A stretch of 44,507 nucleotides of DNA from Syntrophomonadaceae bacterium (GTDB lineage: Bacteria; Bacillota; Syntrophomonadia; Syntrophomonadales; Syntrophothermaceae): positions 1 to 44,507 of the forward strand of contig JAAZLJ010000034.1 in NCBI GenBank assembly GCA_012799365.1, read 5' to 3'. A program made the translations under genes and the position numbers. The notes under the pieces are model-generated. The model searched no databases and was not told the DNA's origin. It worked only from the letters and a program-made list of their open reading frames with translations. Below are positions 22,143 to 43,934 of this stretch, one piece after another; the stretch's first letter is position 1; every line of letters begins with the position of its first letter.

Positions 22143-22352
22143 ATGCAGTGGGGAATTCTGCTGATCGTAATAGGTATAGTAGCCATCATTACAGGTTTAC
22201 TTCTGCTTAAAGCCAGAATTAAAACGGATAAGGATGAAGACCCCGTGGCATTTGCCCTTGATGTTGCCTACAGCCTCCCTGAACCATTTTACCTTACAGT
22301 CGCCGGCCTGGTTCTCTTAATCGCCGGTATCATTGTATCCATCGTGACATAG
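22143..22352 (+). CDS. Small two-helix membrane protein
   Basis: 69 residues with hydrophobic helices at about 3-22 and 50-68 and a charged loop (KARIKTDKDEDP) between them. Family not recognised. ATG 22143 has AGAGGAG seven bases upstream and a good sigma-A promoter. It stands alone, followed by the R2 repeat region. Confidence 0.7.
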   Translation: MQWGILLIVIGIVAIITGLLLLKARIKTDKDEDPVAFALDVAYSLPEPFYLTVAGLVLLIAGIIVSIVT

Positions 22353-22362
22353 GCACACGCCG

Positions 22363-22452
22363 GCACTGGCGAAACATCGTCGGTTTCGTAAGCCACTAGC
22401 CCGGTCAATACTCATCACCATCATAAGCAGCATGAAAATACACGGTTTATTG
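22363..22452 (+). repeat. R2 fragment and R3-like module left of R2 copy a
   Basis: GCCGGCACTGGCGAAACATC (from 22368) matches the interior of the R2 copy at 33609-33628. It is followed by ATCACCATCATAAGCAGC and CATGAAAATACACGG, which resemble the R3 module at 33471-33499. It lies in the 422-bp gap between the two small membrane genes, which holds only repeats and the hairpin leader. Confidence 0.6.
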
Positions 22453-22453
22453 G

Positions 22454-22658
22454 AATGTGCTAACCCAGCGAAGCGACCTATGAAGGCGACGTAGCAGTAG
22501 ACAGCGAAGCCGAGGGCTGTGAAGCGGAGCGAGAAACAGGACGTTTCGAGCAGGGAGAACTGAGTGCATGGACGCCGAATTTCGACCGATCCGCTTCACA
22601 CCGAGGCAAGCTGATGTACTGCAGTCGACAAGTCGGGGAGCGAGCGGGTTAGCACATT
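22454..22658 (-). repeat. R2 MITE-like element, copy a
   Basis: A 205-bp non-coding element bounded by perfect 13-bp terminal inverted repeats, AATGTGCTAACCC and GGGTTAGCACATT. An internal 11-bp inverted repeat, TGTGAAGCGGA (22518) and TCCGCTTCACA (22590), lets the core fold. The core lies in the opposite orientation to the copy at 43558-43765, hence the minus sign. No coding capacity is visible. Confidence 0.75.
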
Positions 22659-22701
22659 CTGTATAAGGATGTTAGTATTTTCATAACACTGATCATTAAA
22701 A

Positions 22702-22772
22702 ATCTCACCTCCGATATGAAATGCAGGCATATTTATTCCTGACCTGCATATTTTTCATACAGGAGGTGAGAT
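22702..22772 (+). promoter_or_regulatory. Shine-Dalgarno-sequestering hairpin
   Basis: ATCTCACCTCC (22702-22712) is perfectly complementary to GGAGGTGAGAT (22762-22772), which contains the ribosome-binding site of the TTG start at 22775. Inner stems TATGAA/TTCATA and ATGCAGG/CCTGCAT extend it to about 24 bp. There is no T-run, so it does not look like a terminator. Confidence 0.8.
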
Positions 22773-22774
22773 AA

Positions 22775-23146
22775 TTGTTCAGCCTATCCACCGAACTCAA
22801 AGGCCTGGCCCTCAGCACCCTGGTCGCACTGGTGCTGGGTTTTCTGGCTACAGTGCTTGTCTACTTTACCCCCTTGCAGGAAACTCTGCTCGACTCCCTG
22901 GCCCGACTAATCATGATCCTGGCCGTATTTACTGGAGGCAGTTACGTCGCCCGAACCCGCGGTCGGCAAGGGTTAATAGGCGGTGTCACGCTCGGTATCC
23001 TGTTTTTTATCCTCATGCTCATACTGAGCCTCATCTTCAACCCTGCTTTGATCTCCTTTAAAACCTTTATACAGCAATTTCTCATCTGCATAATTGCCGG
23101 GGCTTTGGGAGGAGTTCTGGGCATCGGCCTGGCCTACCAGGATTAA
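22775..23146 (+). CDS. TIGR04086 family membrane protein
   Basis: 123 residues with four predicted membrane helices (about 10-32, 40-58, 68-88, 98-120) and a GRQGLIGGVTLG loop. It matches the TIGR04086/YrzE-like family of Firmicute membrane proteins, function unknown. The start is TTG 22775, four bases after GGAGGTGAG, the only credible ribosome-binding site. That site is buried in the hairpin described above, so translation is probably regulated. Confidence 0.82.
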   Translation: MFSLSTELKGLALSTLVALVLGFLATVLVYFTPLQETLLDSLARLIMILAVFTGGSYVARTRGRQGLIGGVTLGILFFILMLILSLIFNPALISFKTFIQQFLICIIAGALGGVLGIGLAYQD

Positions 23147-33337: not shown

Positions 33338-33448
33338 GAAATAAACCTTCAATAATCACAACAATACATATAAACTATGGCTCAGGCTTAACTTCCTTCC
33401 CGGCGCAGCAATGTCTATTTTTGTTAACCTGCGGTTTCGATTTTCGTA

Positions 33449-33503
33449 ATAGACCTCCATGATACTGGAGGTATCACCATCAGGGACATGAAAACTACAT
33501 ATT
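33449..33503 (+). repeat. R3 module, copy at 33.4 kb
   Basis: The small hairpin GATACTGGAGGTATC is followed by ACCATCAGGGACATGAAAAC and TACATATTT. It is almost identical to 43499-43553. Confidence 0.8.
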
Positions 33504-33665
33504 TAACCCGCTCGCTCCCGGACTCGTACGACTGCAGTACATCAGCTTGCCTCAGTGTGTACTGCGACGTCGCCTGCAGTCGGCGCTCAGGCTTCGCCTT
33601 CGATTCCGCCGGCACTTGCCGAAACATCGTCGGCTTCGTAGGTCGCTTCGCCAGGTTACCACACT
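33504..33665 (+). repeat. R2 element, copy c
   Basis: It starts AACCCGCTCGCTCCCGGACT and ends GCTTCGCCAGGTTACCACAC. Relative to copy d it lacks the GGAGTGTGGTT of the left terminal repeat, and its centre is diverged. It lies in the 537-bp gap between the GT4 and GH genes, which holds no gene. Confidence 0.75.
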
Positions 33666-43404: not shown

Positions 43405-43498
43405 AGCATGTCCCTCCCCACCATCTCATTTTAACCATTTTAAGCTCCCCCTCAATCCTATGGCAAGCACCAACTACTGGCCAAACATTATCTTCATT

Positions 43499-43553
43499 AC
43501 AGACCTCCATGATACCGGAGGTATCACCATCAGGGACATGAAAACTACATATT
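43499..43553 (+). repeat. R3 module, copy at 43.5 kb
   Basis: Hairpin GATACCGGAGGTATC (6-bp stem, three-base loop), then ACCATCAGGGACATGAAAAC and TACATATTT. The 564-bp gap between the response regulator and the GNAT gene is almost wholly repeat-derived. Confidence 0.8.
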
Positions 43554-43557
43554 TACG

Positions 43558-43765
43558 GAGTGTGGTTAACCCGCTCGCTCCCGGACTCGTCGACTGCAAT
43601 ACATCAGCTTGCTTCAGTGTGAAGCGGACCCCTCAGGATTCGGCGTCCATGCACTCAGCCTTCGGTGCTCGAAACGTCCTGTTTCTCGCTCCGCTTCACA
43701 GCCTTCAGCTTCGCTGTGTACTGCGACGTCGGCTTCGTATGTCGCTTCGCCAGGTTACCACACTC
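43558..43765 (+). repeat. R2 MITE-like element, copy d (full)
   Basis: 208 bp bounded by GAGTGTGGTTAACC and GGTTACCACACTC, terminal inverted repeats differing by one base. The internal inverted repeat is TGTGAAGCGGA (43618) and TCCGCTTCACA (43690). Its core is opposite in orientation to copy a at 22454-22658. Confidence 0.8.
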
Positions 43766-43790
43766 CCCCGTATAAAGTTATTTTGTTATT

Positions 43791-43834: not shown

Positions 43835-43846
43835 ATTTTCATAGCA

Positions 43847-43934
43847 GACACCCATAATACCAGTGGTATCACCATCAGAGACATGAAAACAGCATGTTTA
43901 TTGGAGTGTGATAACCCGCCCGGGTGACCACAGC
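43847..43934 (+). repeat. R3 module plus internally deleted R2
   Basis: ATACCAGTGGTATCACCATC, AGAGACATGAAAAC and then GGAGTGTGATAACCCG are joined directly to CCGGGTGACCACAG. The two R2 ends meet with the whole core lost. Confidence 0.65.

Follow-up and report, generated by a model that had tools for sequence, protein, structure and literature searches.

We identified a sigma-E-type sporulation promoter lying inside a long inverted repeat immediately ahead of the TIGR04086/DUF3792 membrane protein gene, within a stretch of 44,507 nucleotides of a Syntrophomonadaceae genome (hereafter the window). The 3′ arm of this repeat carries the Shine-Dalgarno (SD) sequence of the gene, and we consider it probable that the sporulation promoter is nested in an SD-masking repeat whose hairpin blocks the translation of read-through RNA only. 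In such an arrangement, the RNA made from the gene's own mother-cell promoter during sporulation would begin just ahead of the SD, would lack the 5′ arm and would hence be translatable, and RNA reading in from upstream would carry both arms, fold into the hairpin and stay untranslated. The hairpin would in this way insulate a sporulation membrane-protein gene against unscheduled translation. The features on which the analysis draws are the following:

22143..22352, + strand: co-oriented hydrophobic open reading frame (ORF) of 69 aa, nearest possible source of read-through
22452..22662, strand not given: interspersed repeat R2, separate from the hairpin, about 40 copies in the genome
22702..22721, + strand: 5′ arm of the repeat, bearing the anti-SD and preceding the promoter
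22726..22734, + strand: −35 element GGCATATTT of the sigma-E-type promoter (matrix match)
22747..22754, + strand: −10 element CATATTTT, its CATA invariant in 46/46 matrix orthologues
22753..22772, + strand: 3′ arm of the inverted repeat, including the SD
22758..22762, + strand: expected transcription start region, placed by its distance from the −10 element
22762..22770, + strand: SD sequence GGAGGTGAG
22775..23146, + strand: TIGR04086/DUF3792 gene, encoding a membrane protein of 123 aa from a TTG start

The Hairpin Masks the Shine-Dalgarno Sequence

The pairing described in the first-pass annotation was recovered in full. It comprises a perfect outer stem of 11 bp (22702-22712 with 22762-22772, ATCTCACCTCC / GGAGGTGAGAT) and inner stems of 6 bp (22715-22720 with 22754-22759) and 7 bp (22721-22727 with 22743-22749), in addition to 2 further bp, and the stem ends just two bases (AA, 22773-22774) short of the TTG at 22775. 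Folding of 22702-22772 gave a minimum free energy of −37.7 kcal/mol against −17.5 ± 2.9 kcal/mol for shuffled sequences (z −6.87), a value that none of the 200 shuffles equaled. The predicted cost of opening the SD of the TIGR04086 gene was 16.6 kcal/mol, the runner-up among the 28 SD-bearing ORFs in the window requiring 7.7 kcal/mol. The hairpin sequence has one copy in the genome, where it is also the sole occurrence of the pattern CACCTCC-N20-50-GGAGGTG. Anti-SD hairpins as a genome-wide feature were considered and rejected, with 12 matches versus 10 in controls across 21 genomes; genome-wide controls were drawn from retrieved loci.

The assignment of the downstream gene to TIGR04086, which equals Pfam DUF3792, also held (84 bits against a cut-off of 30), and, of 150 genomes sampled across the phylum, 133 carried the family. 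A literature search on TIGR04086, yrzE and DUF3792 found nothing relevant.

A Sporulation Promoter Lies within the Hairpin

The promoter, overlooked in the first-pass annotation, occupies 22726-22754, in the loop and 3′ half of the hairpin. Nearly all of 51 orthologue leaders of the TIGR04086 gene from the same class contained GTCATAATT-N12/13-CATATTTT, mostly 6-9 bases before GGAGGTG, a motif found at the same place in most class orthologues. A matrix built from 46 class orthologues, with the window sequence left out, scored 22726-22754 at 25.5 bits, ahead of every other placement in the window (177,896 in all), the next reaching 15.1 bits. The site combines an ATA-containing −35 element and a CATA-type −10 element at a spacing of about 13 nt, as looked for in a sigma-E promoter, and the sigE gene was found in the genome over the cut-off. 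In Clostridioides difficile, sigma-E and sigma-K promoters have a common −10 element and differ in the −35 element (ATA vs AC), and both spoIIIAA and spoIVA are sigma-E dependent (Saujet et al., PMC3789822). Since the strict promoter pattern matched only the TIGR04086 site across its own genome, we drew support from spoIVA and spoIIIAA, which show similarly spaced promoter elements here and in relatives. From the sequence, we infer that sigma-E is the factor acting at the TIGR04086 promoter.

If this promoter is used in sporulation, its transcript would be expected to start at about 22760. The 5′ arm ends ahead of the −35 element, and with such a start the gene's own mRNA would lack the anti-SD arm and could not form the hairpin. 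The predicted cost of SD opening was 18.2 kcal/mol in read-through RNA versus 6.2 kcal/mol in RNA starting at the promoter. By predicted energies, the SD is therefore masked when upstream RNA is included, and, given the expected start, the gene's own RNA would be free of the 5′ arm, two of the properties looked for in read-through silencing. The promoter also suggests mother-cell sporulation timing for TIGR04086/DUF3792, a membrane family of unknown function.

On the minus strand, positions 22711-22739 contain a weaker promoter look-alike, GGAATAAAT-N12-CATATCGG (11.4 bits), followed by GGAGGTGAG and ATG, which could either follow from the symmetry of the hairpin or be the relic of a divergent gene start.

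Masking Stems Recur with Different Sequences

The first-pass annotation had tied its reading to conservation of the stem in orthologous leaders, and at the sequence level such conservation was absent from the nearest relatives. In two members of the same family (G001 and G003), the left arm is missing and the right arm is kept as the −10 element plus SD. Covariation did not exceed that of shuffles among these two sequences and the window's own leader (2 pairs changed on both sides, compared with 1.0 in shuffles), and the stem was rejected as a sequence-conserved leader structure.

A wider sample joined 102 usable leaders from sampled genomes of the phylum to the class set, about 150 in total. 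An anti-SD stem with perfect pairing over 8 nt or more was found in 12/150 leaders (~8%) versus about 1 by shuffle, and about 92% of the orthologue leaders had no long masking stem. Other ORFs of the same loci were also in excess (8/218), so that TIGR04086 exceeds them by a factor of only about two (Fisher p 0.10). Greater stem length than in other genes was rejected as the distinguishing feature, and the neighbor-orientation test given below was more informative.

The recurrent stems differ in sequence and keep their pairing, as seen in CCCATCACCTC/GAGGTGATGGG, TTCCATCACCT/AGGTGATGGAA, ACCTCCTTTCCTCAA/TTGAGGAAAGGAGGT, TTCAACCTCC/GGAGGTTGAA and GACCTCCTTC/GAAGGAGGTC. In most of them the left arm lies within the −35/−10 spacer, and it is located upstream of the −10 element, so that it would be missing from the promoter's RNA in these leaders too; the predicted cost of SD opening falls there from 12-17 to 0.3-6 kcal/mol. 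A refined phylum promoter matrix gave a contrast of 13.4 v 1.5 bits, which is inflated because those very leaders had served to fit the matrix, and with the class-only matrix 9/29 leaders scored above 12 bits.

The sporulation gene yunB was examined as a second case of masking. In some relatives (G001, G005 and their kin), it shows a CACCTC(C)...GGAGGTG inverted repeat across a CATATATT-type −10 element (loci L120, 842-885 on the minus strand, L163, L157, L160 and L167). The yunB CACC appears, in most genomes, to be the −35 element of another (sigma-K-like) promoter type and extends to CACCTC(C) in a few; hence the repeat may be incidental, and the case was set aside.

Masking Follows Co-oriented Upstream Neighbors

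If the hairpin silences read-through, masking would be expected where read-through is likely, and this expectation was the basis of a neighbor test. Strong masking was defined by an SD that costs 12 kcal/mol or more to open and a close co-oriented gene as one within 150 nt, with yajC recognized by a short sequence motif plus position. Strong masking was observed in 8/18 leaders with yajC directly upstream, in 4/33 behind another close co-oriented gene and in 1/98 of the others, this last being the window's own leader. We take the upstream gene in several of the masked leaders to be yajC behind tgt, as named from the protein sequences. When composition was controlled by comparing each leader with its own shuffles, the mean z was 3.14 for yajC, 1.40 for other co-oriented genes and 0.21 for the rest; among control ORFs it was 0.63 when co-oriented and 0.24 otherwise. 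Among the TIGR04086 leaders themselves, the composition-controlled trend had a p of 5e-6, and in the comparison with co-oriented controls p was 0.003. Both values are optimistic, given that the tests were designed as the analysis went along and that the leaders are related by descent. Only a few families supply the strongly masked yajC cases, and a single family, in which three different stem sequences occur, accounts for four.

The position of the window's own leader in the "other" group speaks against read-through silencing, as does its surrounding, in which the co-oriented 69-aa ORF lies 350 nt upstream with R2 in between. Read-through could here arise from that ORF or from transcription through R2, which is the weakest link in the proposed mechanism. 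No family scored above cut-off for the 69-aa ORF, and the terminator scan between this ORF and the hairpin gave no terminator-like site.

In two loci (L012 and L045), the co-oriented gene immediately upstream of TIGR04086 differs from yajC and presumably encodes a YjbQ-type protein, judging from the protein sequence. The neighborhood of TIGR04086 thus varies and the promoter stays.

Alternative Explanations

The first-pass annotation had proposed that the hairpin controls translation in cis within the main mRNA, as an RNA thermometer or as a ligand or protein switch. The masking itself stands, for any RNA with both arms has its SD fully paired, but it applies only to RNA beginning upstream of 22702, the conserved promoter being inside the hairpin. 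The predicted probability of an unpaired SD rose from 0.0002 at 37 °C to 0.0097 at 85 °C, and since it stays below 1% even then, a thermometer is unlikely; a known ligand or leader switch family found no backing either, the Rfam search at gathering score having returned two tRNAs only and no riboswitch or other cis-regulatory family at the hairpin. Regulated masking in the main mRNA consequently appears very improbable. Because masking stems of other sequence recur behind co-oriented genes, cis-control nevertheless survives in a different form, as the probable silencing of read-through RNA.

The main rival to read-through silencing sees in the left arm a by-product with no selected function, which either arose recently by inverted copying of the −10/SD segment (fold-back template switch) or remains from a divergent gene start, the conserved part being the promoter and SD alone. 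The relatives G001 and G003, with their conserved right arm and absent left arm, would fit this explanation, as would the left arm itself, which reads GGAGGTGAGATTTTTAATG on the minus strand with a 15-codon ORF, and the facing ACCTCC of G001, which occupies the place expected for the SD of a 328-aa ORF running divergently. Masking stems that recur with different sequences and track co-oriented neighbors would, however, be unexpected of a by-product, and the stem at 22702-22772 is the strongest among about 150 leaders; we regard this rival as rather unlikely. The arms flank the promoter symmetrically, as would an operator for a dimeric regulator acting at the DNA level, but relatives differ in arm sequence while complementarity is kept, and where the arm lies relative to the −35 element varies among leaders, which leaves an operator extremely unlikely. 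We give hardly any credence to a minus-strand terminator directed against antisense transcription. The plus strand has no T-run after the stem, as the first-pass annotation had stated, and so lacks the stem-then-T-run form of an intrinsic terminator; on the minus strand, TTTTTAATG follows the stem and supplies five T (TTTTT), but this run is short and the terminator scan called none at the hairpin.

Relation to Known Systems

Read-through silencing by a promoter-flanking hairpin has precedents to which we propose that the TIGR04086 arrangement is similar in operation, although homologous to none of them. At Bacillus subtilis sigG (spoIIIG), as PMC5942855 relates with reference to Masuda 1988 and Sun 1991, a large hairpin of 20+ bp was proposed to block translation of the spoIIGA-sigE read-through RNA, and transcripts starting at the promoter of sigG itself are unable to form it. 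That system differs in concerning a sigma factor gene with a forespore (sigma-F/G) promoter, as opposed to the sigma-E type found here. In phage T4, the early RNAs of gene e and I-TevI mask the ribosome binding site, lowering lysozyme synthesis by ~100-fold, and the late-promoter RNA, without the 5′ strand, is translated (PMC3014915); the difference lies in the phage late promoters and in the lysis and homing functions of these genes. A further small hairpin at the sigG ribosome binding site (Mearls et al. 2018, PMC5942855) resembles the present one as an SD-occluding stem of a sporulation gene, but it is contained in the mRNA that the promoter yields and has a constant dampening effect on that mRNA.

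More broadly, and only tentatively, sporulation promoters in spore-forming Bacillota may have a spacer or an upstream flank that serves as an anti-SD as well, an arrangement that would have evolved repeatedly in proportion to the risk of read-through, notably behind tgt-yajC, and would unite promoter and translation block in a compact developmental insulator of which TIGR04086 would be the clearest case and 22702-22772 the strongest stem. This leads to a testable rule, namely that a sporulation gene behind an active gene may encode a promoter-region RNA block acting only on read-through RNA.

Repeats in the Window

The R2 copy annotated upstream of the hairpin was located at 22452-22662, and the hairpin as a part of this repeat was rejected, for R2, across its ~40 genome copies, excludes it. 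A further copy lies at 43554-43766; the repeat measures ~210 bp, has inverted ends (GAATGTGCTAACCC...GGGTTAGCACATTC), shows no evident coding function and occurs in several copies at contig ends. A second repeat family, at 33440-33505, 43490-43555 and 43835-43900, includes GACCTCCATGATACTGGAGGT, a short inverted repeat with an SD-like sequence.
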